Under the pieces are notes generated by a model. That model did no database searches. It worked only from the letters and a program-made list of their open reading frames with translations, and had not been told where the DNA came from. Of a stretch of DNA of 64,000 nucleotides, positions 1,511 to 26,749 are shown piece by piece; the first letter of the stretch is position 1; every line of letters begins with the position of its first letter. The position numbers and the translations under genes are program-made. Origin of the DNA: a candidate division FCPU426 bacterium (lineage in GTDB: Bacteria > Oederibacteriota > Muellerivitia > Muellerivitales > Muellerivitaceae); contig DAIDGV010000021.1 of NCBI GenBank assembly GCA_027452205.1, positions 1 to 64,000 of the forward strand, given 5' to 3'.

Positions 1511-1671
1511 ATGCAACCGTTTGAAAGTCCAGTCAATCCTGTACGTTAGTTGGTTAATCCCGTCAATTTCATAAAACCTGCCATTCGCTAAGCTCTATCT
1601 AACTTCTTTTCCATCCAACGCCGTGAACAACGCCTGAAAGCGTTTTTCACAAAGAAGTTGATCGGGGAACC
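1511..1671 (+). promoter_or_regulatory. Conserved structured leader, copy 1
   Basis: This leader shares long stretches with the region at 4626-4793, including ATGCAACCGTTTGAA, AATTTCATAAAACCTG and AAGCTCTATCTAACTTCTTT. An outer 9-bp stem pairs AACTTCTTT (1601-1609) with AAAGAAGTT (1651-1659). An inner stem pairs AACGC (1629-1633) with GCGTT (1640-1644) around the loop CTGAAA. The outer stem is followed at once by ATCGGGGAA, the only ribosome-binding-like sequence before the GTG at 1672. A weak promoter TTGGTT-N16-TAAAAC may precede it. An RNA element controlling translation is inferred. Confidence 0.55.
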
Positions 1672-4596
1672 GTGAAGAGCTTTGTCATATCGGACCTTTT
1701 TGCCAAAAGGTTAAAACGATTTTACTGTCACGCGCTCATATTGATTTTAGCGATGAGCGCGGTACCTTCCTCTGTGTCCGCTGCCTTTACCGCCATTTAC
1801 GCTTCGGACGGCAATGACGGCTATACCTTCACCGGTTGTTTCACGGTGGCGAACTTAAAAGCCTCTTGTTGGAACGGCATCATCATGTTCGCCGCGTCGG
1901 TGCAGCCCAACGGCGATATCACCGCCGGGGGCAATACGCTGGTATCGAACGGCGTTTATATGGGGGACGCGAACTGGGGATCGAACGTGACGAACCTCAA
2001 GACCCCGCCGACCTCGGTGACCCGTTATGAACTTTGCGTGGGCGGCTGGGGAGACACTAGTTACGCGAACATCCAGAACATCATCAACAGCCAGGGCGCT
2101 TACGGCATCCTCTACACCAATTTCCGCGCGCTGAAGAATGCCTGCCCGGGTTTGGACGCCATCAACGACGATGATGAGGGCAATTACGACCTGAACTCCT
2201 CCATCCAATTCGGGCAGATGCTTTACAACAGCTGCGGCCTGAAATTCACCCAGGTGCCTTATCAGAACCAAAGCTTTTGGGTGTCGTTGAAGAACAGTTT
2301 GGGCGCGGCTTGCGATCTGGTCTATCTGCAATGCTACCAGGGCGGGGCGGGGAACAATCCGGCCCAGTGGGATTCGGCTTATGGTGGCGGGTTCCATGTG
2401 ATCCCCGGTGAAGAAACGAACTACGCCAGCCAATCGCAATTCGCCACCTGGGCCTCGACGGGATCGACCGGCGGGTTCTTTTGGCCGGACTGGTATTACT
2501 GCCCGGGCACTAACTGGCCGACACTGATCGCCCAGGGCATCGGCACGAGCTGTTCGCTGCCCGCGGTGAACCCTTACTTGCAGGTGAACGGCGGCGCTTG
2601 GCAGAACACCAACAACGCGACGGTGCCTTTTGGGGCGTTGGTGAATTTAGGCCCGCAGGATTCGGGTGAGGCCTGGAGCTGGACGGGACCGGGAGGATAT
2701 ACCTCCACTTCCCGCGAGATCGACAGCATTCCCCTGAGTGTGGGCGTGAATACCTTCACCGTGACCAACACCACCCAATGCGTTTGCAACCAAAGTAATA
2801 CTTTCACCATCACCATGCAGCCGCCGGCGGCCTGCGCCAACGGCAACGCCACCTTCGGCAATACCGCGGCGGGCACGGGATGCTGTAATCAGGGTGGGCA
2901 GTTGGACTGCTGTTCTTACAACCTGACCCAACCCATGACGGTCACCTATATGCAGATCTATATGGGATCGGGCACGAATGGCAACGGGGTGCTGGGCATT
3001 TACGCCGATAACGGCGGGTCGCCGGGGACCTTGCTGACCAAGAGTAACGCCATGCAGTTGACCTCGGGCTGGAACACCTTCGCGGTGAACCCGGTCTATT
3101 TGGCGCCGGGCAACTATTGGCTGTCCGCCAGCCTGGATAGCAAGACCAACAATTTTTGGTATTCCAACTCGGGCGGCGGGGGACTGTTGTTCAAGACCTA
3201 CGCTTATAACGGCAACCTGCCCTCGACGCCGGGCGGCGGCATGACGGGCTATGGTTGGCTGATGAGCATCAACGCCAATGGTTGTGTGGTACTGCCCACC
3301 GCCACACCGACCTGGACGGTGCCCGCCTGCACGACCAGCAGCACCACTTTGGGTAATGCGTCCTCAGCGAACGCGGGGTCCGCCGGGGCGGGTGGCATCA
3401 TTGGCGGCACCACTTACACCTTGTCCCAGCCGATGACGGTGACGTCGCTTTCGTTCTATTTCTCCGGCGGCACCAACGGCAGCGGGGTGGTGGGTCTTTA
3501 TTCGGACTCGGGTGGAAGGCCCGGGACACTCTTGGTGCAGAGCAACGCGCAAAGCCTGAACTCGGGGGGCTGGAATAATTTTGTGGTGACGCCGACGGCG
3601 ATCCAGCCGGGCAATTATTGGATCTACGGAAGCTTTTCGGGCACGGCGAACTGGCAATATTCCAATGGTTGCTGCACCGGGGGTTATCTCTTTGGAAGCT
3701 ATACCTATAACGGAAGCCTGCCGAACACGATCACCACGACCCTGACCGGTTATGGCTGGACCATGTGCGCTTACGCCAGCGGCTGCCTGCAGCCCACCGC
3801 GACGATGACCAACACGCCGCGCATGACATCGACCAGTACGGTGACGAACAGTCCAACGCAGACATCGACGGTGACCAATACCCCGACCGTGACGGATAGC
3901 CCGACGCAGACCAACACGGCCACGAATAGCGCGACCCATACCGTGACGAACACGGCCACCAATACGGCCACGCATACATCGACCAACACCGCGACTTCAA
4001 CGGCGACGAATAGTTCGACCTCGACGGCCACGAATACCGCGACCAAAACGAATAGTCAGACCGCCACCAATACCCGAACCGCTTCCTCCACCCCGACGGA
4101 AACTGATACGGCCACCAGCAGCGCGACCCACACGGCCTCAAATACGGCCACGGTGACCCATACCCAAACCCAAACTTCGACCGCTTCCAGCAGCCCGACC
4201 GAAACCCATAGCGCGACGATGACCTCCACGCCGACCGCAACCTCCACTTTGACCAGCACCAACACGCCCAAGGCCACCAGTACCCATACGGCGACCTGTA
4301 CCGTGACGATCACCAACACGCCCTCGGTCACGAAGCCGGTCATTTATCCCAATCCGGTGGCGGGTCCGACGGTGACCCTGCAATTGCCCGGAAATAATTT
4401 GACCAACGTGAGCGTGGAAATTTTCACGCTCTCTTTCCGCGAGATCAAAACGGTGACAATGCCCCAAGTGGTTGGAAGCAGTTTGGTGATCGATTTGACG
4501 GACCGTTTCAGCAAGCAATTGGCGAACGGTCTTTATTACTTCCGGATCACGGTGGGGAACAAAAAATGGGTCGAAAAGTTACTGGTGCTGCGTTGA
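1672..4596 (+). CDS. Large secreted GH18-like barrel protein with two Cys-bounded modules and C-terminal sorting domain
   Basis: 974 aa from a GTG start. A signal peptide (about 1-37, hydrophobic core ALILILAMSAVP) precedes a barrel-like region at about 40-298. There the motif AINDDDE (residues 163-169) resembles the DxxDxDxE active-site strand of GH18, but the match is weak, so the enzyme activity is tentative. An Ig-like segment (about 298-385) follows, then two copies of a roughly 150-aa Cys-bounded beta-rich module (about 388-543 and 552-707). A Thr/Ser/Asn linker (about 708-886) leads to a type IX-like sorting domain (888-974) with IYPNP, LANGLYYFRI and KLLVLR. The protein is probably exported to the cell surface. 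The conserved hairpin leader lies directly upstream. Confidence 0.75.
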   Translation: MKSFVISDLFAKRLKRFYCHALILILAMSAVPSSVSAAFTAIYASDGNDGYTFTGCFTVANLKASCWNGIIMFAASVQPNGDITAGGNTLVSNGVYMGDANWGSNVTNLKTPPTSVTRYELCVGGWGDTSYANIQNIINSQGAYGILYTNFRALKNACPGLDAINDDDEGNYDLNSSIQFGQMLYNSCGLKFTQVPYQNQSFWVSLKNSLGAACDLVYLQCYQGGAGNNPAQWDSAYGGGFHVIPGEETNYASQSQFATWASTGSTGGFFWPDWYYCPGTNWPTLIAQGIGTSCSLPAVNPYLQVNGGAWQNTNNATVPFGALVNLGPQDSGEAWSWTGPGGYTSTSREIDSIPLSVGVNTFTVTNTTQCVCNQSNTFTITMQPPAACANGNATFGNTAAGTGCCNQGGQLDCCSYNLTQPMTVTYMQIYMGSGTNGNGVLGIYADNGGSPGTLLTKSNAMQLTSGWNTFAVNPVYLAPGNYWLSASLDSKTNNFWYSNSGGGGLLFKTYAYNGNLPSTPGGGMTGYGWLMSINANGCVVLPTATPTWTVPACTTSSTTLGNASSANAGSAGAGGIIGGTTYTLSQPMTVTSLSFYFSGGTNGSGVVGLYSDSGGRPGTLLVQSNAQSLNSGGWNNFVVTPTAIQPGNYWIYGSFSGTANWQYSNGCCTGGYLFGSYTYNGSLPNTITTTLTGYGWTMCAYASGCLQPTATMTNTPRMTSTSTVTNSPTQTSTVTNTPTVTDSPTQTNTATNSATHTVTNTATNTATHTSTNTATSTATNSSTSTATNTATKTNSQTATNTRTASSTPTETDTATSSATHTASNTATVTHTQTQTSTASSSPTETHSATMTSTPTATSTLTSTNTPKATSTHTATCTVTITNTPSVTKPVIYPNPVAGPTVTLQLPGNNLTNVSVEIFTLSFREIKTVTMPQVVGSSLVIDLTDRFSKQLANGLYYFRITVGNKKWVEKLLVLR

Positions 4597-4625
4597 GGGG
4601 GCGATGAGGTTGAAAATCTCTCTGT

Positions 4626-4793
4626 ATGCAACCGTTTGAAGGGTGCGTTAATCGTATACGTTTTTTTGTTAATTCCATCAATTTCATAAAACCTGGTAAC
4701 CGTTAAGCTCTATCTAACTTCTTTCCTTTCAACGCCCTGAACAACGCCTGAAGGCGCTTTATATGAATTGAGAAAGAAGTTGATCGGGGAAAT
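4626..4793 (+). promoter_or_regulatory. Conserved structured leader, copy 2
   Basis: Closely similar to the leader at 1511-1671. The outer stem AACTTCTTT (4716-4724) with AAAGAAGTT (4773-4781) is kept at 9 bp. The inner stem here is CGCC (4745-4748) with GGCG (4753-4756), loop TGAA. A 14-nt longer spacer separates the inner hairpin from the outer 3' arm. TGATCGGGGAA then abuts the GTG start at 4794. Retention of both arms while surrounding bases change favours RNA structure. Confidence 0.55.
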
Positions 4794-7700
4794 GTGGAAA
4801 TTACTACGTTTCAAAACTCTTTGAACAAGGGTTTGAAATTTTCAGTTCGGTGGAACCTCATATCGTTTCTTTTGGAACGATCGATTCTTCTTTTTTTACC
4901 CCTCTTTCTCATAACGATGCCCGCTTGGGCGGACGGGGCCTTTGGACCGCAGCACGGGGTTGCCATCGGACCGGTCGTCGTCAACTTCTCTGACCTGGCG
5001 AACAAACAAGCCAAGGGTCTTTTGCCCGTTTCCAAACCGATCCAAATGTACGAACAGGACGAGGACCAGGGCCCGGCCCTGCCGGCCACGAATCCTTTGG
5101 CCAAGATATCTCACTTGATCCTGCCGAACATCCCCGCCGGGGCCTTGGTGCCTTCGCCTTCCAGCGCGATCGATTTTGAGGGACAAACCAACGGGGGATG
5201 GAACCCGCCGGATACCGAAGGGGCGGTCGGCCCCAATCACGTCATCTCGATGGTCAATAGCTGGATCAACATCAAGGACAAGTCGGGCAACTTGCTGAAA
5301 AGCGTGGATATGCAAAGTTTCTGGTCGGGCGGCGGCATCGCCACTTACGGCAGCGCTTTCGACCCCCGGGCCCAATATGACCCGATCAGCCAGCGCTTCA
5401 TCATCCTTTGCGGCAGCGGTATCGGCGACCTGAACCAATCGCAGGTCCTGTTGGCGGTGAGCCAAACCTCGGACCCGACGGGTAGCTGGAACCTTTATAG
5501 TTTCTTCGCGGACAACAACACCCCGACCCAGCATTGGCTGGACTATCCCACGATGGGTTTCAACAGCAAGTGGATCCTGATCCACGGCGACCTGTTCGGG
5601 CAGAACGGCGGCTCGACCGAGGATGGGATGTGGGCCTTCAATAAAGCCAACCTTTACGCCGGGGGCGCGGCCCAATACACCTTCATGGTCGCCGGGAGCT
5701 GGATGTGCATGCCCGCGGAAACCTATGACGCGGCCGAGCCCGATGAATATGTGGTCTGGAACGACAGTAACAGCAGTGTGGCGCTCTGGAAACTGACCGG
5801 CGCCATCGGCAGTGAGAGCTTGGTGCAGGTGGCCAGCGTTGGTTCGCCCCTGGGATGGACGGGTAGCGACGCGCCCGCGCCCCAGTTGGGGTCTTCGGTC
5901 ACGATCGGCGGGGGCGTGGGCGTCTTCATGAGCTGTATCTACCGCAACAGCTCGATCTGGGCCTGCGAGAGCGTGGCGCCGAACAGCGGGCCGACCCGAT
6001 CCTGCGCCCAATTCTTCCAGATGGATACCTCAGGTAATTTGCAGCAGTTCGGCCGGGTGGACGATCCCACGGGCACCAACTTCTATAACTTCGCCTCGAT
6101 GGGCGTCAACACCAACAACGATATCCTGGTGGGGTTCACCGTCTATTCATCCAGCATCTATCCCAGCTGCGCTTACGCTTACCACTCGGCCTCGGACCCG
6201 GCGGGTAGTTTCCGCGATCCTTATATCTATAAAGCGGGCGGCGGGGACGGCCAGAGCCGGTGGGGGGACTACAGCCACACCGAAGTGGACCCGACCAACA
6301 ACCTGGACTTTTGGACGGTGCAGGAATACCAGAACGGCGGCGGATGGGACACCTGGTGGGCCAAGGTGGCCGCTTTGTCCATCGCCACCGCGACCCCGAC
6401 GCCGAGCTTTACACCCACGACCGTGCCGCCCGTTTGCGCCTCTTGGGTGGTCAACGGCAACGCGAGCCAGGGCGCAGGGGTAACCTTGACCATAGCGGCC
6501 AATGGGGAAACCGGAACGGCTTGGAACACGAGCACCCTGGACTTGACGAAGGACTTTAACCTGGCCTTCAAAGCTTACTTTGGGGCGCCGGGCGGGGCGG
6601 ACGGCATCGACTTCGTCCTGCAGAACGACCCGCGCGCCACGGCGGCGATCGGCGGAGGGGGCGGGGGCAAGGGTTATTCGGGCGGGGTTTCGATCACGCC
6701 CTCGGTGGCTTTCGACCTGGAAACCTATGGCAGCAACGGCACCCTGCAAATGCTGGAGAACGGCAACACGACCAATACCTGCGCTTATGTGGCGGGCACT
6801 TGCCCCTATGTGTTCTCCTCGAACATCGCCAATTCCGCCGAGCATAGCTATCAAGTGACCTGGAGCGCCTCGGCTAAACAACTGATGCTGATCGTCGATG
6901 GCAACGTGGTGATGACCTATAACCGGGACCTAGTGGCGTCGGTCTTTGGCGGCAATAGCAACGTCTTTTACGGATTTACCGGGGCCACCGGCGGTTCGAA
7001 CAACTTGCAATATGTCTATCAGGTGGGCTGCGTGGTCCCGACGCCGACCGCGACCATTCCCGCTTGCACGACCAGCTCGACCACCCTGGGCAATACCTCC
7101 TCGGCTAACGCGGGTTCCGCGGGCGCCGGGGGCTATATTGGCGGCACCACTTACACCTTGTCCCAGGCGATGACGGTGACCTCGCTGTCGCTTTATTTCT
7201 CCTCGGGCACCAACGGGAACGGGGTGGTGGGTCTTTATTCGGATTCGTCGGGTAATCCCAACTCGCTGTTGGTGAAGAGCAATCCGCAAGTCCTGAACGC
7301 GGACGCCTGGAACAGCTTTGTAGTGACGCCGACGGTGATCCCGGCGGGCAAATATTGGATCTATGGCAGTTTCACGGGTACGGTGAATTGGCAGTATTCC
7401 AGCGGCTGCTGCGCGGGCGGCTATCTGTGGGGCGCCTATAGCTATAACGGCAACTTGCCCGCGACGATGGTCGGCGGGCTGACCGGATATGGCTGGACCA
7501 TGTGCGCTTACGCCAGCGGCTGTCTACAGCCCACGGCGACCATGACCGCGACCGGGACAAGCACGGCTACTTCCACCCCGGCCTATACGGCGACCGCCAC
7601 CTCGACCGCGACAGGTACGAATAGCGCGACCTCGACGGCCACTTCGACCGCGACCCAAACCGCGACCAATAGCGCCACCAAAACGAATTCGGCCACCCAA

Positions 7701-8333
7701 ACTTCCACTTCGACCCGGACGAATACCGCCACATCCACGGCCACTTCCAGCGCGACCTCGACGGCGACCCAGACGGCGACCAACAGCGCCACCTCGACCC
7801 GGACGAACACCGTGACTTCCACGGCTACGCCGACCTCGACCTTTACCCTGACCGAGACCTCGACCAGCAGTTCCACGGCGACCGCGACGGTGACGCCGAC
7901 CCGAACCTCCACCTCGACGGCGACGGTCACCCACACCCAAACCTGCACCTCGACCCCGACCAAGACCAATACCATGACCGCCACGGTGAGCTGCACCAAT
8001 ACACCCACGGTGACAAGGACCTATACGGTGACCGCGACCCAAACCCCGACGGACACGCCCCTGGTCACCCAGCCGGTGATCTATCCCAATCCGGCGACGG
8101 GAAATCAGGTGGCCCTGGCGCTGCCCAAACTGAACGCAGCATCGGTCACGGTGGAGATATTCACCCTGTCCTTCCGCGAGGTGCAAACCTATCACTTCGC
8201 GCAAGTGGCCGGAAGTACGGTGATCCTGCCCCTTTACGACAAGGGCGGCGTGGCTCTCGCTAATGGGCTTTATTACCTGCGGGTCACGGTGGATGGTCAT
8301 AAGTGGATCGTGAAGTTGCTGGTCCTCAAATGA
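4794..8333 (+). CDS. Secreted propeller-like protein with L-type lectin domain and C-terminal sorting domain
   Basis: 1179 aa, GTG start; the overlapping ATG two bases earlier hits a stop after ten codons. A signal peptide ends near PAWA-DG (about residue 46). Residues about 100-535 resemble an uncharacterised secreted propeller family marked by PPDTEGAVGPNH and FDPRAQYDPISQRFI. Residues about 544-747 are a bacterial L-type (legume-like) lectin with GADGIDFVLQNDPRATAAIG, likely binding mannose-type glycans. Then follow one copy of the Cys-bounded module (756-912), a Thr/Ser linker (913-1090) and a sorting domain (1092-1179). The next gene starts inside the stop codon (ATGA overlap), so the two are probably co-translated. 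No catalytic motif is evident. Confidence 0.78.
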   Translation: MEITTFQNSLNKGLKFSVRWNLISFLLERSILLFLPLFLITMPAWADGAFGPQHGVAIGPVVVNFSDLANKQAKGLLPVSKPIQMYEQDEDQGPALPATNPLAKISHLILPNIPAGALVPSPSSAIDFEGQTNGGWNPPDTEGAVGPNHVISMVNSWINIKDKSGNLLKSVDMQSFWSGGGIATYGSAFDPRAQYDPISQRFIILCGSGIGDLNQSQVLLAVSQTSDPTGSWNLYSFFADNNTPTQHWLDYPTMGFNSKWILIHGDLFGQNGGSTEDGMWAFNKANLYAGGAAQYTFMVAGSWMCMPAETYDAAEPDEYVVWNDSNSSVALWKLTGAIGSESLVQVASVGSPLGWTGSDAPAPQLGSSVTIGGGVGVFMSCIYRNSSIWACESVAPNSGPTRSCAQFFQMDTSGNLQQFGRVDDPTGTNFYNFASMGVNTNNDILVGFTVYSSSIYPSCAYAYHSASDPAGSFRDPYIYKAGGGDGQSRWGDYSHTEVDPTNNLDFWTVQEYQNGGGWDTWWAKVAALSIATATPTPSFTPTTVPPVCASWVVNGNASQGAGVTLTIAANGETGTAWNTSTLDLTKDFNLAFKAYFGAPGGADGIDFVLQNDPRATAAIGGGGGGKGYSGGVSITPSVAFDLETYGSNGTLQMLENGNTTNTCAYVAGTCPYVFSSNIANSAEHSYQVTWSASAKQLMLIVDGNVVMTYNRDLVASVFGGNSNVFYGFTGATGGSNNLQYVYQVGCVVPTPTATIPACTTSSTTLGNTSSANAGSAGAGGYIGGTTYTLSQAMTVTSLSLYFSSGTNGNGVVGLYSDSSGNPNSLLVKSNPQVLNADAWNSFVVTPTVIPAGKYWIYGSFTGTVNWQYSSGCCAGGYLWGAYSYNGNLPATMVGGLTGYGWTMCAYASGCLQPTATMTATGTSTATSTPAYTATATSTATGTNSATSTATSTATQTATNSATKTNSATQTSTSTRTNTATSTATSSATSTATQTATNSATSTRTNTVTSTATPTSTFTLTETSTSSSTATATVTPTRTSTSTATVTHTQTCTSTPTKTNTMTATVSCTNTPTVTRTYTVTATQTPTDTPLVTQPVIYPNPATGNQVALALPKLNAASVTVEIFTLSFREVQTYHFAQVAGSTVILPLYDKGGVALANGLYYLRVTVDGHKWIVKLLVLK

Positions 8334-11300
8334 GGCGGGTTGTTATCGTCTCGTGCGTGCTTTTTTTGAGCGGACTGACTCATAACGTTTTCGCGGACTT
8401 CAACACGAATGACGATACTGCCGCGGCGGTCCTGCAGACCTATTACAACAGCAGCGGTCTATGGGACGGCACTTTCGCGGGTTGGGGCGACGCGGAAGCT
8501 TTAGAGACGGTTGAGAACACCATTCTTCGCACCAATGGGCAGTCCTCTTACCTTTCCGACATCGCTACGACCTACAACGACAATTACAGCGGGGGCTTTA
8601 TCGATAATTACTATGACGACGAGGGTTGGTGGTGCAATGCCTGGATCCGGGCTTATGACCTGACGGGCAACACGACCTATCTGAACATGGCCAAGTCCAT
8701 CTATAGCGACATCGTGGGCGGATGGGATGCTTCGGTCTGTAACGGCGGGCTTTGGTGGCAGAAGCCGAACAATTATAAAAGTTCCATCTCGAACGAGCTT
8801 TTCCTGCTGGAGTCCATCCGCCTTCACCAGCGCACGCCCGGGGACAGCTATTACCTGAATTGGGCCAACGCCGAATGGACCTGGTTCAGCGGGACCGGCG
8901 TGATCAATGGGAACAACCTGATCAACGACGGGGTCGATTCCACGACCTGCGGGAACAACGGCGGGGGGATCTACACCTACAACCAGGGGGTCATCCTGGC
9001 GGGCCTAACGGACCTCTATAAAGAGACCCTGAACACCGCTTATTTAACGAAGGCCGAATCGATCGCGAACGCGGTGTTGAATTCCGCCAATGGACTGGTG
9101 AACACCAGTGAGATCGTTACCCAGGGCGGGCCCGGGGACGGATCGGAGTTCAACGGCATCTTCGCCCGTTATCTGTTCTATCTCTATGACACCGACCACA
9201 ACCCGGCCTATTACAACTTCCTCGTGGCCAACGCTAATTCCATCTGGGCCAATGACCGGGATGGGTCCAATAACTTGGGTTACCTTTGGACCGGGCCGGT
9301 GAACCTGTCCATGCCGGGCAGTCACGTTTCGTCCATGGACCCGGGGGCGGTCATTGCCAAACCCTGGACCACGACGATGGTCTATGCCCGGGGCGCGGGC
9401 GACCCGGAACTGAACCACTCGACGGGTTACGCGACGGGCACCCTGGCTTGGGCTTGCGACAACACTTCCTCCCAGACCTTCATGCAATGGGGCCCCTATG
9501 TGTCGTACCTATCAGCGGGAAGCCACACGGTGCATTTCCGGCTGGCCTCGTCGGTGACCAATTGCTCGCCGGTGAGCCTGTTGACCCTGCAGATCACCAG
9601 TAACAGCGGTACGGTCACCCAGGGCAGTATGAACGTGCCTTGGGCCGCCTTCGTGGAAGCGAACAAACCGCAGGATTTCGCCGTGAGTTATACCGACAAC
9701 ACCGCCAATGATCCTTTGGAGTTCCGTGTGATATGGAACGCGGTCCCGGGAACGCCCAAGGTGACCCTATCGGATATCACGGTGGATGGGAACTACAACT
9801 GGACCGCCGCCAACCTGACCCACGACATTGGCCGCCTGGACGGGGTGAACGACTGGGAGGCGGATTCGGTGAAGGATTCGGCCTCGGGTTATATGATCCG
9901 GGGGCCGGGTACCGCGGAACTTGGCAACGCTAATTGCCAGGCGGTCTTCGAGATGAAGGTGGATAACTTCAATTGGGATAACAACCAGGTGGCAACCTTG
10001 TCGGTGGTTGATGTGGATACCGGCACCACAGTGGCCAGCCAGAACGTGACGAGGAACCAGTTCAACACCATCTTGTTCCAGGACTTCACCCTGAATTTCA
10101 CCGCCACGCTGGGCCATCACTATGACTACCGGGTCTATTATGACGTCTTCAACAATTCGCCCCGGCTGACGGTGCGGGGCATCTATACCAGCATCCTTTC
10201 GGCCAATCCGGCGGCCACCCCGACCGCGATCGCCTGCGCCAGCGGCGGGACCTTTGGCAATACGGTGTCGGGCACCGGCGGTTATAACCTGGGCGGCCAG
10301 ATCGATTGCGCGAAATACAATTTGGCCCAGGCCATGACGGTGACCTCCATCAGCATCTATATGGGAGCGGGTACTTCGGGCAATGGAGTCTTGGGGATCT
10401 ATTCAGATAGCGGCGGGCCGGCGAATCTTTTGGTGCAAAGTTCGGCCCAGCCCTTGTTCGCGGGATGGAATACCGTGGGAGTGACCCCGACGGTGCTGAC
10501 GGCGGGCAACTACTGGCTATCGGGAAGTTTTACTGGCAACGCGGTCTTTGACTATTCGAATAGCAATGGCGGGACGATGTCCTGGACCAATTACACCTAT
10601 AGCGGCACCTTGCCCTGCACGGTGGGAGGCTTGACCGGTTATGGCTGGTTGATGAGTATTTACGCCAGCGGTTGTTTACAGCCGACCCCAACGATGACCC
10701 AGACCCATACCTCGACCGATACGGCGACCAACAGCCCTACCTGCACCCCGACGGCGAGCAGTACCGCCACTTTGACCGACACGGCCACCCTGGGCGAGAC
10801 CGCCACGAATAGCGCGACGAATACGGTCACGAACAGCCCTTCCTCGACGCCCAGCGAGACGGAGACCAGTTCGGCGACCTCGACGAATACGATCACTCCC
10901 ATGCCCACTTCGACCAGCACCCTTACCCCGGTCTCGAGCTATACGAGCACCTCGACCCAAACGGTTACTTTTACAGGGACGAGTACAGCTACTCGAACAG
11001 CGACGAACAGCGCCACTTCGACGGCGACAAACAGCGCTACTTCGACCGCGACGAATACCGCCACCAAAACGAGTAGCCAGACCGCGACGAGCACCTGCAC
11101 CGCTTCGTCGACGCCGACCGCGAGTTTTACTTCGACCAGCACGGCGACAAATAGAGCCACCAACACTGCGACGGTGACTCGTACGCAAACTTCGACATGG
11201 ACCGCTTCTTCGAGTCCGACTCAGACCGGCAGTTCCACCGCCACTTCGACACTGACAGCCACGGCGACCTCGACAGGCACCAGCACGCCCAAGGCCACCA

Positions 11301-11617
11301 ATACCCGCACGGCTACTTGCACCGCGACGGTGACCAACACGCCTGCGATGACCAAGGCGGTCATCTATCCGAACCCGGCGACGGGGGACCGTGTGGAAGT
11401 AGCGGTGCCTAAAGCGAACCCGAGTGAAGTAACCATCGAGATCTTCACGATTTCGTTCCGGGAGATCGCGACGGTTCAGGTGAGCCAAGTGGTGGGGAAC
11501 ACGGTGTTGGTGCCGCTTTATGACAAGCGGGGAACGGCCTTCGCCAACGGGCTTTATTACTTCCGGGTGACGGTGGACGGACAAAAATACATCACAAAGC
11601 TGTTGGTGCTGCGCTAG
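8330..11617 (+). CDS. Secreted GH76 family alpha-1,6-mannanase with C-terminal sorting domain
   Basis: 1095 aa from the ATG at 8330, which overlaps the previous stop by 4 nt; a longer GTG start would place the signal peptide internally. The signal peptide is 1-22 (NVFA-DFN). Residues 23-325 match GH76: WGDAEALETVENTIL, the catalytic-type YYDDEGWWCNAW (Asp97-Asp98), CNGGLWW and SNELFLLESIRL. GH76 enzymes cleave alpha-1,6-mannan backbones, as in yeast cell-wall mannan. Two beta-sandwich regions of carbohydrate-binding appearance (about 330-630) follow. After them come one Cys-bounded module (634-785), a Thr/Ser linker (786-1010) and the sorting domain (1010-1095, IYPNP to KLLVLR). Confidence 0.85.
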   Translation: MRRVVIVSCVLFLSGLTHNVFADFNTNDDTAAAVLQTYYNSSGLWDGTFAGWGDAEALETVENTILRTNGQSSYLSDIATTYNDNYSGGFIDNYYDDEGWWCNAWIRAYDLTGNTTYLNMAKSIYSDIVGGWDASVCNGGLWWQKPNNYKSSISNELFLLESIRLHQRTPGDSYYLNWANAEWTWFSGTGVINGNNLINDGVDSTTCGNNGGGIYTYNQGVILAGLTDLYKETLNTAYLTKAESIANAVLNSANGLVNTSEIVTQGGPGDGSEFNGIFARYLFYLYDTDHNPAYYNFLVANANSIWANDRDGSNNLGYLWTGPVNLSMPGSHVSSMDPGAVIAKPWTTTMVYARGAGDPELNHSTGYATGTLAWACDNTSSQTFMQWGPYVSYLSAGSHTVHFRLASSVTNCSPVSLLTLQITSNSGTVTQGSMNVPWAAFVEANKPQDFAVSYTDNTANDPLEFRVIWNAVPGTPKVTLSDITVDGNYNWTAANLTHDIGRLDGVNDWEADSVKDSASGYMIRGPGTAELGNANCQAVFEMKVDNFNWDNNQVATLSVVDVDTGTTVASQNVTRNQFNTILFQDFTLNFTATLGHHYDYRVYYDVFNNSPRLTVRGIYTSILSANPAATPTAIACASGGTFGNTVSGTGGYNLGGQIDCAKYNLAQAMTVTSISIYMGAGTSGNGVLGIYSDSGGPANLLVQSSAQPLFAGWNTVGVTPTVLTAGNYWLSGSFTGNAVFDYSNSNGGTMSWTNYTYSGTLPCTVGGLTGYGWLMSIYASGCLQPTPTMTQTHTSTDTATNSPTCTPTASSTATLTDTATLGETATNSATNTVTNSPSSTPSETETSSATSTNTITPMPTSTSTLTPVSSYTSTSTQTVTFTGTSTATRTATNSATSTATNSATSTATNTATKTSSQTATSTCTASSTPTASFTSTSTATNRATNTATVTRTQTSTWTASSSPTQTGSSTATSTLTATATSTGTSTPKATNTRTATCTATVTNTPAMTKAVIYPNPATGDRVEVAVPKANPSEVTIEIFTISFREIATVQVSQVVGNTVLVPLYDKRGTAFANGLYYFRVTVDGQKYITKLLVLR

Positions 11618-11631
11618 GCGAGGCAAAACCG

Positions 11632-11726
11632 ATCAGCCACGGATGGGATGAACGGCAAAGCAAAAACGATTTAGCCACAGATGAACACGGATGGGGAACA
11701 AAATCGTCAGGCAAAAGAACGGCCTA
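11632..11726 (+). repeat. Dispersed CCACAGATG repeat copy
   Basis: The sequence CAGCCACGGATGGGATGAACGG, then TTTAGCCACAGATGAACACGG, then GGGGAACAAAATCGTCAGGC, matches the repeat units at 961-1284 in the same order. It lies immediately after the GH76 gene stop. The following 160 bp to the next gene contain a small hairpin (CCTTAGGCTAAGG, about 11793-11805) and nothing else recognisable. Confidence 0.75.
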
Positions 11727-11888
11727 GAAGGTTTATGGGGGGTGTTGGCTGGGATGAGTGGCTTGAGGTTTTACATTTAACCTTAAAAAAGGCCTTAGGC
11801 TAAGGAAAACAAGGGTTTAGGGGCGGGAAATTAATTTTAGGGTGATAATGGTGCGGTCATCGCATCCGGTAATGGGAAGGGAGTTTCT

Positions 11889-12326
11889 GTGTCTCGGAAA
11901 AGCCGTCGGCGTCAAAAGAAAACCGATCCCACTGCTCAAAGAACAGGCTTGGTAGCCGGCTTGTTCCTGATCTTCGTTTCCTTGGCGGCGGCCTATCAAA
12001 GCCCGCGCGTCCAGTTCTTCTTTCACTCTATTCAAAATCATCCGGCCCTTCAGGGTGTTGCCGGAAAAATTCCGGATCCGGACAACGGCATCGACGGGGC
12101 GAAAGGGAACGATCCCAGCGAAAAGGAAAGGCTCAAGCCTGAAGATGAGGACCGGAACGGGGATGATTCGCTGAAGTTCAAAAAGCGCGCTTATGATTTC
12201 CGCGCTTATCCGAACAAGACCATTCCGGCGGGTTCACGGGAAAGGGCCTGGGAACAGTTCCAACAACACTATCCGCCGGACCAGAAAAAATCCTTGTGGA
12301 AACCCGCGAAGCAGGCGTTCCAATGA
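11889..12326 (+). CDS. Small membrane-anchored protein of unknown function
   Basis: 145 aa from a GTG at 11889, preceded by GGGAAGGGAG. The N-terminus is strongly basic (MSRKSRRRQKK), followed by one hydrophobic segment (about 20-36, VAGLFLIFVSLAAAY). This predicts a single inward-anchored membrane helix or uncleaved signal. The rest is highly charged and acidic-proline rich (about 60-100), then a basic tail ending KQAFQ. I do not recognise a family. Its stop codon overlaps the start of the next gene by 4 nt, so it may be co-produced with that large surface protein, perhaps as a partner. That role is inference from coupling only. Confidence 0.65.
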   Translation: MSRKSRRRQKKTDPTAQRTGLVAGLFLIFVSLAAAYQSPRVQFFFHSIQNHPALQGVAGKIPDPDNGIDGAKGNDPSEKERLKPEDEDRNGDDSLKFKKRAYDFRAYPNKTIPAGSRERAWEQFQQHYPPDQKKSLWKPAKQAFQ

Positions 12327-15300
12327 GAACCCCGGGGACAGTGAAAAGATCAGGGGTCCTGACAGGGGCGGTCTGGCTTTTATTGGCGTTGGCTCTTGGG
12401 GCCCAGAGCGCCTATGCGCTCTCTCCCCAGTGGATCCCGGTTGGGCCGGTCTATCTGACTGAAGGGTATAATCCCTCCAACCAGAAGGACAATGGCCGCA
12501 TCTGGAACATCGCGGTGGACCCTTCCAATGTCAACCACATCCTGATCTTCTCGGATTCGGGCGGTATTTGGCAGACGACGAACGACGGGACGACCTGGAC
12601 GCCGCAGACGGACGACTATCCTTCCTTCAACGTTTCCTATAACAACAATTCAGGCGCCATCGCTTTTGCCGCTTCCAGCCCGAACATCGTTTACGCCAAT
12701 ACCCAGCCCGCGGAAGACGGCTGGGGCGGGGTCATCAAGTCCACCGATGGCGGCAGCACCTGGAACGAGATCGCCACTTACAACAACATCCTGGGGACGA
12801 ACTATTACACCAACATGCGGGACATGCTGGTGGACCCGGCCAACCCGAACAATTTGGAATTTGACTGTAAGTATTCCTGGTATGTGGGGCCCACCTGGGG
12901 AAATATCGGCGGGGTGTATAAGTCAACCGATGGGGGATCGACCTGGACCAACACCTTCCAGGGCACGATTGGCGTGCCGGGACCGTGCCTGGTGGCCAGC
13001 TCCTCCAATTTCAGTAATCAGTATTTCGCGAACAGCACCAATATCGGATCGAACCCCACGGCGGGCATCTACCGGTCCACCAACGCGGGCACCAGCTGGT
13101 CGGTCGTCAGCGGGCCCTGGTCGTCGGTGAGCGGATTGGCGGACCTGTTCGTGGCCATCGCCCCCTCGGACCAGAACACCGTGTATGTCATCGCCTCCAC
13201 CGGCGACTATGCCTACAACCCCCCGGGTTTCTACATGACCTCCAACGCCTGGGCCGCCACGCCGACCTGGACCAGCCTGACCCCGCCGATCAGCTCGCCG
13301 GACGGTTTTAAGGTGCAACCGACCAATTCGCAGATGATCTTCCTGGACTTCTATAACTATTACTGCAACAGCCCCTGCACCGACAGCTGGACCAACTACG
13401 AAACCTTCAACGTAGCCAACGGCGCCGGGTCGGCCTGGACCGAATATTACGCGGGCAACAGTCCCTTCCATGCGGACGGCCGGGAACTGTGCTGGCAAAA
13501 CAACACCAACTTGTTAGCAAGCTGCGACGGCGGGATTTTTCTTAGCACCGACTCGGGAAATACCTTTAACGACATCAACGAGGGCGGCCTGCAAACCATG
13601 ATGATCTATGGCCACTCGGGCAGCGTGCAGCCGGGATATCCTTCCAACCTGGTCGGCGGGGGCACACAGGATAACGGCACGCAGCTTTCCATCGGGGGCG
13701 GGGTTTTCTCCCAAAGCTTGGCGGGCGGCGACGGTAGTTCGAACCAGCAAGACTTCTTTGGCGATGCGGCGGGAGCGCTGGGCACCTCCAGCAATGGCAC
13801 GATGTACCGATCCACGAACCCCAGCGTCTGGAACAACCCCAGCTTTTATTACACCTCTACGGGCCAACAAGTAGGGTCGCTCACGGGCATTCAAGCGACC
13901 GCGCGTTCTTATAACAATCAGAACTATGTATTGGCCGGCGCGAGCACGACTTTGTACCAAGCCACGGATTTTTGGAGCAATCCCACCTCCACGAACGTGG
14001 TGTGGACCAACATATCCTCCGGTATCGCGCCCACGGGGAACATCCAATATGTCGAATATGCCCTGGCGGACACGACGAACAAGACCATCGCCTTCACGGA
14101 CGCCAAGAACGAGATATGGGTGACTTCCAACGGGGGCGCGTCCTGGAACGGCCCGGTGACCAACGGCCTGCCGAACTTGAACATAACCCAGGTGACCTTC
14201 AACCCCGCGAACGCGAACACCCTTTACGCGGTCTATTCGGGGTACAACGGGACACCCGCCGGGCATATCTTCGTCACCGCCAACGCGCTGGCGGCCTTCC
14301 CGACATGGACGAGCATCGACGATGGGGTGAACATTCCCCATAACTGTATCGCGGTGGACCCGAATACGCCCGCGGATATCTTCGTGGGCACGGATATCGG
14401 CATGCTTTACAGCACCAACTCGGGGACCAGTTGGACGGCCATGAACCCGGCTTCCACCGGAATGCCGAACGTGAGCGTGCAGCAACTGATGTTCGAGAAA
14501 AGCACGGATACGCTGACCGCCTGGACCTTCGGGCGCGGCATCTTCCAAATGCAGATGAATAACTACACGGCGACCCCCACCTATACCCCGACCGTGACCC
14601 CCACCTTCTCGGCCTGCTCAAGCTGGGTCGTGAACGGCAACGCCACCCAGGGCGCCGCCGTCACCCTGACCACCGCCACCAACGGGCAAGTGGGATCGGC
14701 CTGGAACCGTAACTGCATCAACCTGACCCAGAATTTCAATATGACCTTCAAGACTTATTTCGGGGCGGCCGCCGGCGCGGACGGCATGGACTTTGTGCTG
14801 CAAAACGACCCGCGGGGCACCGCCGCCATCGGGGGAGGCGGCGGCGACAAAGGTTATTCGGGAACCAACGCCATCACGCCCTCGATGGCCTTTTGCCTGG
14901 AAACCTACGCCAACAATGGGACCCTGCAGCCGGAAGAGAACGGATCGACTACCAGCACCTGCGGCTATACGACCGGCGGACTTTGTCCTTTCACGTTTGG
15001 GACCGCCATCAATAACGGGGTGGAGCACACTTATAACGTCACCTGGGACCCGACGGCCAAGGTGCTGACCCTTTACATGGATGGGGCGGTGGTGATGACC
15101 TACAACCGGGACCTGGTGGCCAATGTGTTCGGCGGGTCCACTTGTGTTTATTACGGATTTACCGGCGCGACCGGCGGGGCGAACGATCTTCAATACTTCT
15201 ACCAGACCAATTGTTTTACGGACACGCCCACCCCCACGACGACCCATACTTCCACGGTCACGCCCACTGGTACGCAGACCAATACGCCGACCAGCCAATA

Positions 15301-15964
15301 TACGAACACGGCCACCAACACCGCTTCGCCTAGTTCGACGGCCACGTATAGCGCGACTTCGACGTCGACGAACAGCGCGACATCGACCGCGACCAAAACC
15401 AACTCGGCCACCGAAACCTCTACCTCGACCGGGACGAATACCGTGACTTTCACGGCCACACCCACGGAGACCTTTACGATGACCGAGACCTCGACCAGCA
15501 GTTCCACGGCGACCGCGACGGTGACCCCGACCCGAACCTCCACCTCGACGGCGACGGTCACGGATACCCAGACCTGTTCCCCGACGCCGACCAACACCAA
15601 TACCATGACCGCCACGGTAAGCTGTACCAGCACGCCTACGGTGACAAGGACCTATACGGTGACGGAAACCCAAACCCCGACGGCGACGCCTTTGGTCACC
15701 CAACCGGTGATCTTCCCGAATCCGGCGACGGGCAACCAAGTGGCCTTGGCGCTGCCCAAACTGAACGCGGGTTCAGTAACGGTGGAAATTTTCACTCTCT
15801 CGTTCCGCGAGGTGCAGACTTACCGTTTTGCGCAGGTGGTGGGGAGCACGGTGGTCTTGCCCCTTACTGACAAGAGTGGGACAGCCCTGGCCAACGGGCT
15901 TTATTACTTAAGGGTCACGGTCGATGGCCACAAATGGATTCTGAAACTGCTAGTACTGAAGTAG
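12323..15964 (+). CDS. Secreted BNR-type propeller protein with L-type lectin domain and C-terminal sorting domain
   Basis: 1213 aa from the ATG at 12323 (ATGA overlap with the upstream gene). The signal peptide ends near residue 32 (QSAYA-LSP). Residues about 33-750 contain repeated STDGGSTW / TNAGTSW / TSNGGASW motifs (Asp-box/BNR type) in a large propeller. The layout resembles GH74, sialidase or sortilin-type folds, but I cannot assign an active site. Residues about 764-964 are an L-type lectin closely similar to that in the protein at 4794-8333 (GADGMDFVLQNDPRGTAAIG). A Thr/Ser linker (965-1125) and sorting domain (1127-1213) follow. Part of the linker DNA is nearly identical to that of the 4794 gene. 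The Cys-bounded module is absent. Confidence 0.78.
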   Translation: MRTPGTVKRSGVLTGAVWLLLALALGAQSAYALSPQWIPVGPVYLTEGYNPSNQKDNGRIWNIAVDPSNVNHILIFSDSGGIWQTTNDGTTWTPQTDDYPSFNVSYNNNSGAIAFAASSPNIVYANTQPAEDGWGGVIKSTDGGSTWNEIATYNNILGTNYYTNMRDMLVDPANPNNLEFDCKYSWYVGPTWGNIGGVYKSTDGGSTWTNTFQGTIGVPGPCLVASSSNFSNQYFANSTNIGSNPTAGIYRSTNAGTSWSVVSGPWSSVSGLADLFVAIAPSDQNTVYVIASTGDYAYNPPGFYMTSNAWAATPTWTSLTPPISSPDGFKVQPTNSQMIFLDFYNYYCNSPCTDSWTNYETFNVANGAGSAWTEYYAGNSPFHADGRELCWQNNTNLLASCDGGIFLSTDSGNTFNDINEGGLQTMMIYGHSGSVQPGYPSNLVGGGTQDNGTQLSIGGGVFSQSLAGGDGSSNQQDFFGDAAGALGTSSNGTMYRSTNPSVWNNPSFYYTSTGQQVGSLTGIQATARSYNNQNYVLAGASTTLYQATDFWSNPTSTNVVWTNISSGIAPTGNIQYVEYALADTTNKTIAFTDAKNEIWVTSNGGASWNGPVTNGLPNLNITQVTFNPANANTLYAVYSGYNGTPAGHIFVTANALAAFPTWTSIDDGVNIPHNCIAVDPNTPADIFVGTDIGMLYSTNSGTSWTAMNPASTGMPNVSVQQLMFEKSTDTLTAWTFGRGIFQMQMNNYTATPTYTPTVTPTFSACSSWVVNGNATQGAAVTLTTATNGQVGSAWNRNCINLTQNFNMTFKTYFGAAAGADGMDFVLQNDPRGTAAIGGGGGDKGYSGTNAITPSMAFCLETYANNGTLQPEENGSTTSTCGYTTGGLCPFTFGTAINNGVEHTYNVTWDPTAKVLTLYMDGAVVMTYNRDLVANVFGGSTCVYYGFTGATGGANDLQYFYQTNCFTDTPTPTTTHTSTVTPTGTQTNTPTSQYTNTATNTASPSSTATYSATSTSTNSATSTATKTNSATETSTSTGTNTVTFTATPTETFTMTETSTSSSTATATVTPTRTSTSTATVTDTQTCSPTPTNTNTMTATVSCTSTPTVTRTYTVTETQTPTATPLVTQPVIFPNPATGNQVALALPKLNAGSVTVEIFTLSFREVQTYRFAQVVGSTVVLPLTDKSGTALANGLYYLRVTVDGHKWILKLLVLK

Positions 15965-16111
15965 ATCCAGTCAGAATTCAAACCCCAAGAAATACCTTTG
16001 TAAATCAACGGTTGCTTGAGGTCCAATCGACAACCTCATCTTGAGAATAACTCGGTTAGGTTGGTAGCATTCTATGAGTTAGTCCTATTTCAACGGGGAG
16101 CAAAAGAGATC

Positions 16112-16801
16112 ATGCATAGCTGGCCCCGACTTAAAATGATCGTCTTTTTTATGGTTGTCGGATGGAGTGCTTTGACCGCAGCTTGGGCGCAGAATGACGG
16201 GAACACAAAGCCTTTATTAACTATTCGCCCAGTGTTCTTTTGTTTAGGGGCCGGAATTCCCTTGATGGGTAGTGGGTTCGGGACGGAATACGATCCCTGG
16301 GTAGATTCGGGGAGCTATACCTTGGCTAATGGTTATGGAACGAAATATGACGTCGGTCCCGTTTTCGAGTTCGCTTTTGGTGTGGATCTGGACGACAATT
16401 GGTCTCTAGAGCTTGACGCGGAACTTTCCTATTTTTTGGGTTCGCAGGTCGGTATTTCCTCAGTCGAGACTAGTTTAGTTCCCTGTGTGCAGTACAACTT
16501 GGACCATGCATGGGCAACGCCTTATTTCAAGGTGGGATGTGGCTTGAACATCAACGATTCGAACACACCCGCAGGCACCTATACCGGATATACCAACAAC
16601 GGTGGAAATTATTACCAGACGGCGGATACCAATGGGTTGTCAGTCTTGAATCCGGTTTTGTGCGGAGGTGTGGGAGTTCTGATTGAAAATCCTTGGACTT
16701 CCAAAATCCAAATTTATGTCCAAGCGCTATACGATATGAGTTTTACATCACGAGGAGATTTTTCTTATTTCCCGATTACTGCCGGATTGCGGTTCCAGTG
16801 A
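16112..16801 (+). CDS. Outer-membrane beta-barrel protein
   Basis: 229 aa from the ATG at 16112, preceded by GGGGAG about 12 nt upstream. A signal peptide (about 1-26, ALTAAWA-QND) is followed by alternating hydrophobic strands such as VGPVFEFAFGVDLDDNWSLELDAELSYFLG, here given only as motif FEFAFGV and SLELDAEL. The chain ends in an aromatic-rich strand (FPITAGLRFQ), typical of outer-membrane barrels of the OmpA/OMP_b-brl type. Length suits an 8- to 10-stranded barrel. It sits between two surface-protein genes, and a decayed sorting-domain tail follows its stop directly. It lacks its own Thr-rich linker or sorting domain. Function is unknown; a role in anchoring or transport is possible. Confidence 0.7.
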   Translation: MHSWPRLKMIVFFMVVGWSALTAAWAQNDGNTKPLLTIRPVFFCLGAGIPLMGSGFGTEYDPWVDSGSYTLANGYGTKYDVGPVFEFAFGVDLDDNWSLELDAELSYFLGSQVGISSVETSLVPCVQYNLDHAWATPYFKVGCGLNINDSNTPAGTYTGYTNNGGNYYQTADTNGLSVLNPVLCGGVGVLIENPWTSKIQIYVQALYDMSFTSRGDFSYFPITAGLRFQ

Positions 16802-16803
16802 AC

Positions 16804-16844
16804 GGCCATAAAGTGGATATTGAAATTGTTGGTGTTGAAAGTAG
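16804..16844 (+). pseudogene. Fossil 3' end of a sorting-domain surface-protein gene
   Basis: Directly after the barrel gene stop, the bases starting GGCCATAA encode, with one extra base, the ending HKWILKLLVLK followed by GTAG. Intact genes here end GHKWIVKLLVLK or GHKWILKLLVLK and then a stop. A one-base insertion after CATAA and another before TAG break the frame. Only about 40 bp remain. I read it as the relic of a deleted surface-protein gene. Confidence 0.6.
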
Positions 16845-16860
16845 GTAAGACAAAGTTAAT

Positions 16861-17307
16861 GGAACCACGGATGTAGGGGATCAACGGCCACGGCGAAACC
16901 GATTTAGCCACAGATGCATGGGATTCATGGGATGAACAGCAAGGCAAAACCAATTGGCCGCAGATGTCCCGTTGGGCGGGACTATACCGATCTCCATGAA
17001 AAGTTTGAGCAAAGAGGATCGGCATGAACGCAGATTTTCGCTGTTAAAAAATCATAAGACTTTGCCTTTAAACAGCGATTATTTGCGTGAATTTGCGGCC
17101 AAAAGTTTTTTGTCGCCTATCCCGAATAACGCCTCAAGAGATCGCGTCGGCCACGGATGTAGGGGATCAACGGCCAAGGCGAAACCAATCTAGCCACAGA
17201 TGCAGGGGATGCATGGGATAAAGACGAAAGCTTAAACAGATTTGATTTTTCAAAAACAAGATGTCCCTTTGTTTTCATCCCCTGAATCCCCTGCATCTGT
17301 GGCTCAA
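16861..17307. repeat. Cluster of direct and inverted CCACAGATG/CCACGGATG repeats
   Basis: Direct copies of CCACGGATGTAGGGGATCAA lie at 16865 and 17151, each running about 37 bp with one or two changes. CCACAGATGCA copies lie at about 16908 and 17194. A 19-bp perfect inverted pair, AGCCACAGATGCAGGGGAT (17192-17210) and its complement (17286-17304), could form a long hairpin. An unrelated insert of about 150 bp separates GCCGCAGATG (16968) from later copies. No gene is visible in 16845-17361. Confidence 0.8.
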
Positions 17308-17361
17308 TTGATCTAGGAATTAAGCCTCATCCATCACTGTTGCGCCTGAATTCAAAAAATA

Positions 17362-17515
17362 CAACCGTTTGAAAATGGCCTAAAAACGACATTAATTCCA
17401 TACATCGACGCGATAATCCGGTCAATTTCCAATTCCCCCAACCTATGAAATCATTCAATGCAACAGACCCTTTTGGAACAACGTCTGAAAACGTTATCGG
17501 GGAAGGACTCTAATT
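17362..17515 (+). promoter_or_regulatory. Conserved leader, diverged copy 3
   Basis: Shares CAACCGTTTGAAA (17362-17374), GTCAATTTC, GGAACAACG and ATCGGGGAA with the leaders at 1511 and 4626. The inner hairpin is AACGT (17480-17484) with ACGTT (17491-17495) and loop CTGAAA. Compared with copy 1 the closing C-G pair has become T-A, a compensatory change. The outer AACTTCTTT stem is missing. Start codon is TTG at 17516, about 14 nt after the GGGGAAGGA run. Confidence 0.5.
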
Positions 17516-21703: not shown

Positions 21704-21869
21704 GGGTGATGCCGGTGTGGCGGTTGGGTCTTTCGATTCGTGTGTGGTTAAACGACCACCAAACAATTTGGTACATGATTTTGATAATCCTGTCCGTTAC
21801 TCCGTTGAAGGGACCCTTTAAACTTCCTCGAATTCAAAACGGTCGACCGAAAAGGGAACTACAAGTCCC

Positions 21870-25864: not shown

Positions 25865-26749
25865 TTATCTCTTCCCAAAAACTTCCCGGTAACGGCGGGG
25901 GCTTTTGCCCATCACTTGGGCGAATTGCCGGGAGAAATAGTTGCTGTCCATGAATCCGCACCGATAACCGACCTCGGTGACGGGAACGTCCTCCTGTTCC
26001 AGCATCTGGCAAGCCTTCCGGATCCGCAGGCGGATCAGGTAATTGATGGGCGATTCGCCGAAAGCGGTCTTGAACAAACGACGGAAATGGCTGGTGGAGT
26101 GGCCGGAAACCTTGGCCAGTTGTTCCAAGGCCAGGGGCTGGAGCACGTGGTCGTTCATATAGTCGAGACTTTTGACCAAGCCCGAATCCCCCGGGGGAAT
26201 GGGCGTGGCCCTTTTGGTATAGACCCGGGTGATGAAAAGGAAAAGCCGCCGCAGGATCAGGCGCATGGCGGCCATCTTGCCAGACTGGCTTCCACCCTGC
26301 TCCTCGTCCATCTCGCTCATCATTTGGTCCGCGATGGCCAGTTCCCTCGGCGTCAAACGCAACCGCGCCATGTTGTACTTGAGGGGTTTCTTGTTCTTGG
26401 GTCTTTCCAGCGCGGGGAAGAGAATGGAAAGGGCTTCCATGTCCGGCGCTTCCTTCTGCAATTCCTGGAGGATGAGCGGGTCGAAATGGAAGTTCCGGTG
26501 GGTCTGGTTCCGGGAACGGAAAAAACTGTGCACGACACCGGGCGGAACAATGATCACGTCGCCGGGCGTGGTGAGATGTTCCTGTCTCGCCACCCGGTGC
26601 CAGCCGTTACCGTGGGTGATGAGGGTCATTTCCATGTATTCGTGGCTGTGGGCCATGAAATCGTCATTAGGAAGCGTGTAAGGCTTCTCTAATTCCAACC
26701 ACATCTTGCCTGGATGGATCCCGGAGGGATAGCGATAGACAAAGGCCAT
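25865..26749 (-). CDS. AraC-family transcriptional regulator
   Basis: 294 aa. The N-terminal half is a cupin-like sensor (HSHEYMEMTLITHGNGWHRV, then TPGDVIIVPPGVVHSF), which normally binds a small molecule such as a sugar. The C-terminal half (about 190-292) is the two-helix-turn-helix AraC domain: LEQLAKVSGHSTSHFRRLFK and then VTEVGYRCGFMDSNYFSRQF, ending GKSPRRYRE. It is divergent from the giant two-enzyme gene at 27096 and upstream of the acyltransferase. By context it probably senses a carbohydrate and controls one or both neighbours. Target and effector are inferred. Confidence 0.9.
   Translation of the reverse strand: MAFVYRYPSGIHPGKMWLELEKPYTLPNDDFMAHSHEYMEMTLITHGNGWHRVARQEHLTTPGDVIIVPPGVVHSFFRSRNQTHRNFHFDPLILQELQKEAPDMEALSILFPALERPKNKKPLKYNMARLRLTPRELAIADQMMSEMDEEQGGSQSGKMAAMRLILRRLFLFITRVYTKRATPIPPGDSGLVKSLDYMNDHVLQPLALEQLAKVSGHSTSHFRRLFKTAFGESPINYLIRLRIRKACQMLEQEDVPVTEVGYRCGFMDSNYFSRQFAQVMGKSPRRYREVFGKR

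Follow-up and report, generated by a model that had tools for sequence, protein, structure and literature searches.

Three similar leaders before secreted-protein genes of a candidate division FCPU426 bacterium: a tandem DNA repeat and a covarying hairpin

FCPU426 is an uncultured and little-studied candidate phylum, and a literature search found no paper that pairs it with type IX secretion (T9SS). Positions 1-64,000 of contig DAIDGV010000021.1 (assembly GCA_027452205.1, candidate division FCPU426 bacterium), hereafter the window, contain three genes for secreted surface proteins with similar leaders, which a sequence-only reading took for a possible undescribed cis-regulatory RNA coordinating surface enzymes. 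Is the shared signal carried by RNA or by DNA? The three shared leaders are confirmed, far above chance, and the proposal is partly supported: the analysis points to a composite control region, mainly a putative AraC-type DNA operator, with a covarying hairpin in the 5' untranslated region (5'UTR) as a second, less certain element. Coordination is supported, given that in four genomes the region stands before genes for secreted proteins, most of them T9SS-sorted, but the carrier is probably not mainly RNA, most of the shared block being more likely a DNA element.

The tandem direct repeat and its recurrence

The core of the leaders is a 35-bp tandem direct repeat, TYAATYCCRTMCAT-N7-NYAATYCNRTCMAT, with an exact 21-bp period, built of two 14-bp half-sites (shared core TTAAT..C.T.CAT, then, 21 bp on, TAATCC.GTCAAT). 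It is their longest conserved block and was absent from the sequence-only reading, as was a weaker fourth site before a glycoside hydrolase family 18 (GH18) gene (Table 1). The half-sites correlate at 0.85 at an offset of 21 and at no more than 0.31 at any other offset tried between 12 and 27, and in leave-one-out scoring all ten sites outscore every other position among the 1.8 million fetched. Pairwise identity between sites is 19-30 of 38 (median 24), and the other sites have only the repeat in common.

The genome itself (2.89 Mb, 28 contigs) was scanned by genome searches and fetched stretches, and sequence models place six sites in it and four strong ones in three sister genomes (G001, G004 and G005). 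The first clues to the core were a match in G005 (E 2e-5) and a partial one upstream of a T9SS gene of contig C24; a short-pattern search with a scan upstream of T9SS genes gave two more sites with identical spacing, at C11:78389 (S53 peptidase) and the weaker GH18 site. Model R2, built from seven sites (alignment A3), finds three that were unseen in training, of which G005:C26 (E 4.9e-6) and G004:C59 (2.7e-5) directly precede GH16 genes and G001:C31 (1.2e-5) precedes a gene for a secreted threonine-rich protein. Weak matches also precede GH16 genes of G001:C45 (E 1.6) and G001:C31; C23, with the own genome's second GH16 gene, shows no site there. All strong sites with a visible downstream gene (10 of 10) precede secreted genes in the same orientation, and the products are mostly T9SS-sorted (GH16, GH18, lectin-like) or an S53 peptidase. 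A strict pattern run against 85,000 species genomes (257 Gb) returned six matches, two at FCPU426 promoters already found in the sister genomes and four in open reading frames of unrelated phyla.

A two-turn direct repeat with fixed spacing and one orientation before related genes suggests a dimeric DNA-binding protein. A cupin-AraC regulator encoded in the cluster is a candidate activator (Table 1), and in G004:C59 and G001:C31 orthologous cupin-AraC genes directly precede the site and the GH16 gene. The G005:C26 contig has a PocR-type AraC gene past its GH16 gene, and another AraC gene is found on the G005:C154 contig. Linkage to a regulator, direct half-sites ~21 bp apart and related downstream genes, the marks of an AraC-type tandem operator, are all present. 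The regulator in the own genome may differ, or be a PocR-type AraC protein conserved in G000, G004 and G005. As a separate observation, AraC proteins of ~610 aa (L208:4093-5970, L210:2916-4748, L211:2194-4029) are ~70% identical between genera, carry PocR and degenerate GGDEF-like domains in the two scanned, and have several relatives that adjoin T9SS genes.

TAANNT boxes resembling a -10 element lie 21-25 bases after the second half-site in most members. A start 7 nt past this candidate box would, in copies 1 and 2, make the transcript begin at the 5' arm of the outer stem described below. Upstream of the repeat, CAACCGTTTGAA is common to all three leaders, as had been reported, with three exact copies in the window against 0.39 matches expected even with one mismatch allowed; it probably lies outside the transcript, on its upstream side. 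It did not lead to further leader copies, as the genome's two other exact matches are unrelated. The shared ATCGGGGAA near the gene starts is likewise present in all three leaders, but this 9-mer occurs five times in the window against 1.3 expected and is therefore weak evidence alone. The start codons are GTG, GTG and TTG, as described.

Searches with the whole leader were less productive than those with the repeat. Copy 2 matches copy 1 at ~80% identity over 160 nt, and copy 3 has only blocks in common with them; blastn with the whole leader in 39 genomes returned copies 1 and 2 only. A sequence-only model of the whole leader scored the three copies strongly and nothing else comparably in the own genome, and gave one clear relative, G005:C154, in 79 genomes. 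A weak match on C20, before what reads as a PHP-type phosphoesterase-like gene, was discarded.

Table 1 Features of the window; -10 boxes are predicted from sequence
Feature	Position	Strand	Remark
CAACCGTTTGAA, copy 1	1514..1525	+	starts 19 bp before the start of the tandem repeat; probably a second DNA site
Tandem repeat (putative operator) of 1672 gene	1533..1567	+	half-sites 1533-1546, 1554-1567; period 21 bp
Candidate -10 box TAAGCT	1589..1594	+	
5'UTR stem-loop, copy 1 (predicted)	1601..1660	+	inner hairpin 1629-1644 AACGC-CTGAAA-GCGTT inside outer stem; z -2.2
ATCGGGGAA, ribosome-binding sequence, copy 1	1661..1669	+	
Secreted T9SS-sorted protein	1672..4596	+	N-terminal domain without assignment
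CAACCGTTTGAA, copy 2	4629..4640	+	19 bp upstream of tandem repeat
Tandem repeat of 4794 gene	4648..4682	+	half-sites 4648-4661, 4669-4682
Candidate -10 box TAAGCT	4704..4709	+	
5'UTR stem-loop, copy 2 (predicted)	4716..4781	+	inner hairpin 4743-4758 CGC-CTGAAG-GCG inside outer stem; z -1.2
ATCGGGGAA, ribosome-binding sequence, copy 2	4783..4791	+	
Secreted T9SS-sorted protein, L-type lectin domain	4794..8333	+	
CAACCGTTTGAA, copy 3	17362..17373	+	30 bp upstream of tandem repeat, i.e. 11 bp (~one helical turn) farther
Tandem repeat of 17516 (GH16) gene	17392..17426	+	half-sites 17392-17405, 17413-17426
Inner hairpin, copy 3	17480..17495	+	AACGT-CTGAAA-ACGTT; without outer stem
ATCGGGGAA, ribosome-binding sequence, copy 3	17496..17504	+	
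Secreted T9SS-sorted GH16 enzyme	17516..21703	+	carbohydrate-binding module (CBM) 6, malectin and CBM5/12 domains
Weaker tandem repeat before GH18 gene at 21870	21763..21797	+	left-out score barely above background
Candidate -10 box TAAACT	21819..21824	+	
Secreted T9SS-sorted GH18 enzyme	21870..24647	+	
Cupin-AraC transcription regulator, candidate activator	25865..26749	-	in cluster, between two GH18 genes

The hairpin before the ribosome-binding sequence

The inner hairpin, reported with a CTGAA loop, is present in all three leaders with what is really a hexaloop, CTGAAR, and the pattern has three matches in the window against 0.31 expected. The change of the inner stem from AACGC/GCGTT in copy 1 to AACGT/ACGTT in copy 3 keeps the pairing, as claimed; copy 2 (AACGC/GCGCT) has one broken pair (A-C), with the loop still closed by C-UGAA-G. 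Seven leaders of the repeat set have a Y-UGAA-N-loop hairpin 76-101 nt after the site start, on stems AACGC/GCGTT, CGC/GCG and AACGT/ACGTT (twice) in four of them and CAGTC/GACTG, CCC/GGG extended by GACC/GGTC, and CGT/ACG in the remaining three. In their alignment 91% of cells are paired, four of five pairs show two-sided changes, and the covariation score is equalled in none of 500 shuffles and lost when the partner is slid. Leaders picked by the DNA repeat alone thus carry different yet complementary stems, and the inner hairpin passes the check on further homologues that the sequence-only reading had proposed; a stem that covaries in independent homologues is what marks a structured 5'UTR element.

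The fair test of the hairpin takes eight leaders picked without regard to any hairpin. Two of these have at least four of five Watson-Crick pairs and four have at least three, levels reached by 0.6% and 2.9% of random 100-nt windows, which corresponds to chance probabilities of ~1e-3 and 5e-5 by arithmetic that ignores the kinship of the two best (GH16 promoters). In a 590-gene sample, YTGAA hairpins with at least five Watson-Crick pairs precede 4 of 53 T9SS genes (two of the four being discovery copies) versus 0 of 537 others, and none of nine control loops was found before T9SS genes. TGAA is the commonest core among hexaloop hairpins near gene starts (9, next 4), some of them in coding sequence. 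A larger alignment, A4, takes in hairpins that a search for pairing had turned up, and does not count as independent evidence. The hairpins L216:6521 and L218:3772, which lie inside signal-peptide coding regions, were excluded because CTG-AAA codons probably account for them.

Perfect or near-perfect 6-bp YTGAAR hairpins also stand just before the start codons of genes that have no tandem repeat: AACCGT-CTGAAA-ACGGTT in a T9SS cluster of G005:C154 (L219:7599, minus), GGTTCT-TTGAAG-AGAACT at the GH16 gene of G000:C23 (L216:12812), AACCGA-TTGAAG-TCGGTT in a T9SS cluster of G001:C45 (L214:14798), and one at G004:C59 (L212:11935). Tentatively, the Y-UGAA-N hairpin could be a small, new RNA element acting in cis on T9SS genes of FCPU426, independent of the AraC-type site and read by an RNA-binding protein or small RNA. 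If so, it would form a further layer of control, adding translational control of surface cargo. Structured 5'UTR hairpins that act on translation or stability are known from bacteria and, like the present one, are short and placed between transcript start and ribosome-binding site; unlike them, this hairpin stands before T9SS genes with a loop, Y-UGAA-N, that recurs on variable stems, and it is not in Rfam 15.

The perfect 9-bp outer stem described for copies 1 and 2, AACTTCTTT/AAAGAAGTT, is there (1601-1609/1652-1660 and 4716-4724/4773-4781). It is found in these two copies only, plus weakly in one relative, G001:C31, as a different 7-bp stem that could arise by chance. Folded whole, the leaders are of ordinary stability (z -1.8, -0.1 and +0.9), 5'UTR folding is notable only in copy 1 and in G005:C26 (z -2.1), and the consensus structure is the 5-bp inner stem only. 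The leaders have no conserved structured ligand-binding core of the riboswitch kind, a 5-bp stem and UGAA loop alone being common to them. The proposed Rfam comparison matched them to no family at gathering or relaxed thresholds and returned tRNAs and chance matches only. The chance matches are chiefly microRNA models and are due to an unrelated CCACAGATGCA...GGGGAT repeat at 16865-17310, just upstream of the third leader, where two direct 88-nt copies (85% identical) stand together with inverted copies.

Mechanism and alternatives

The leaders are probably AraC-activated promoters followed by a small structured 5'UTR, and not riboswitches. An AraC-type dimer would bind the two 14-bp repeats on one face of the DNA (21 bp being two turns of B-DNA), in a position that partly overlaps the -35 region and otherwise lies just upstream of it, and would activate a promoter with a TAANNT -10 box. 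Transcription would begin a few bases past the box and give a 5'UTR of ~70 nt, which in about half of the members would have the Y-UGAA-N hairpin just before the ribosome-binding sequence and in copies 1 and 2 would hold it inside a 9-bp stem beginning at the predicted transcript start. The hairpin likely sets mRNA stability or translation, or is bound by a protein or RNA, and the whole region would co-regulate secreted proteins that degrade or bind polysaccharides, together with a peptidase, most of these products being T9SS-sorted.

Several results weigh against this reading. The GH18 site and C11:78389 exceed the best background only narrowly in leave-one-out scoring, and one weaker R2 match, G004:C18 (E 8e-4), is not before a secreted gene. 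The candidate -10 boxes are weak, that of the 17516 gene lies at offset 17 instead of 21, those of C24 and G001:C31 are unclear, and a standard sigma-70 scan detects no promoter. In a scan of ~20 other T9SS-type upstream regions of the own genome the repeat was absent from most, and that genome lacks a clear orthologue of the cupin-AraC proteins shared by G004, G001 and G005. The hairpin alignment comprises only seven short rows, and about half of the sites have no hairpin.

If the whole 160-nt leader were instead one cis-regulatory RNA, riboswitch-like or protein-responsive, with the repeat as part of its fold, a covarying inner hairpin next to the ribosome-binding sequence would be expected, as would an outer stem that encloses it in two copies and perhaps in G001:C31. 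This is an unlikely account: the block that is conserved best repeats at exactly 21 bp and has no common fold, the leader folds are ordinary, Rfam is without a match, and the 11-bp insertion of copy 3 between CAACCGTTTGAA and the repeat fits the helical phasing of DNA. A cis-regulatory RNA explains the whole block poorly because the carrier is mainly a DNA repeat, upstream of a -10-like box and linked to AraC genes. The CTGAAA hairpin could itself be a DNA palindrome, given that AACGTCTGAAAACGTT is nearly symmetric and could bind a dimer, but we regard this as quite improbable, as an operator would retain the letters of its arms, whereas here the arms differ entirely from leader to leader, with pairing and the asymmetric loop preserved.

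LytTR regulators also use two-turn direct repeats, and such a response regulator, or another protein with the same habit, might bind the repeat; its closeness to the predicted promoter would also suit an alternative-sigma promoter. Both are unlikely beside the recurrence of AraC-type genes next to the sites, and a direct repeat is not normal for an alternative-sigma promoter. Recent duplication of one promoter region in the cluster would explain why copies 1 and 2 are so alike, outer stem included, and may still hold for that stem. As an explanation of the whole likeness it is highly improbable: the N-terminal proteins behind these two copies are unrelated, other sites share the repeat alone on other contigs and in other genera, and the sister-genus sites contradict it.

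Target genes and relation to known systems

The T9SS type A sorting domain TIGR04183 is above cut-off at the C terminus of all five window proteins tested. A GH76 gene (8303-11617) overlaps the 3' end of the lectin-domain gene at 4794, and the two are probably one operon. The target of the C11 site is a pro-kumamolisin peptidase with malectin and CBM5/12 domains. The genes under the promoter motif (GH16, GH18, GH76 in the operon, lectins and S53 peptidase) form a set for degrading material of the glucan, chitin and mannan type. The motif outlines a carbohydrate-degradation regulon in FCPU426 and gives a handle on the diet of this phylum and its control. Fungal cell walls would, as a conjecture, be a fitting substrate for the predicted glucanase, chitinase-like and mannanase-like activities.

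Classical AraC-family activators such as AraC and XylS join a one-component sensor to an AraC helix-turn-helix domain and use direct repeats next to the -35 element. The candidates here would be of the same build, with tandem half-sites two turns apart beside the putative promoter.

In a literature search on T9SS with riboswitches and on AraC sites, one paper alone, on Bacteroides regulons, was directly relevant: AraC-type regulators of Bacteroides polysaccharide genes use direct repeats averaging 21 bp apart (PMC3878776). Like these hybrid two-component system (HTCS) regulons, with half-sites of 12-16 bp (PMC3878776), the FCPU426 loci have direct half-sites ~21 bp apart before genes for polysaccharide degradation, and an AraC-type regulator is encoded in the locus. 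Unlike HTCS proteins, which unite a sensor, a histidine kinase, a receiver and an AraC domain in a single chain, the linked candidates are one-piece cupin-AraC or PocR/GGDEF_2-AraC proteins. The phylum differs, the targets are T9SS-type secreted proteins, and the strict half-site pattern occurs at promoters of no other phylum among the 85,000 species genomes. The present sites would carry the two-turn AraC-type operator logic of Bacteroides polysaccharide loci into another T9SS-using phylum.

A palindrome, AACCGGTT, lies 32-59 bp before 4 of 51 T9SS genes of the sister genomes (L264:4231 and 8652, L273:1267, L219:828); it looks like a LacI-type operator and resembles CAACCGTTTGAA. The T9SS cluster of the window also encodes an S53 pro-kumamolisin peptidase with kelch motifs (35210-39103, +); the window scan gave no strong tandem repeat before it, in contrast to the C11 relative. 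A DUF6364 gene and the PIN_3 gene that follows it, at the edge of this cluster (27-871, +), form a VapBC-like toxin-antitoxin pair.

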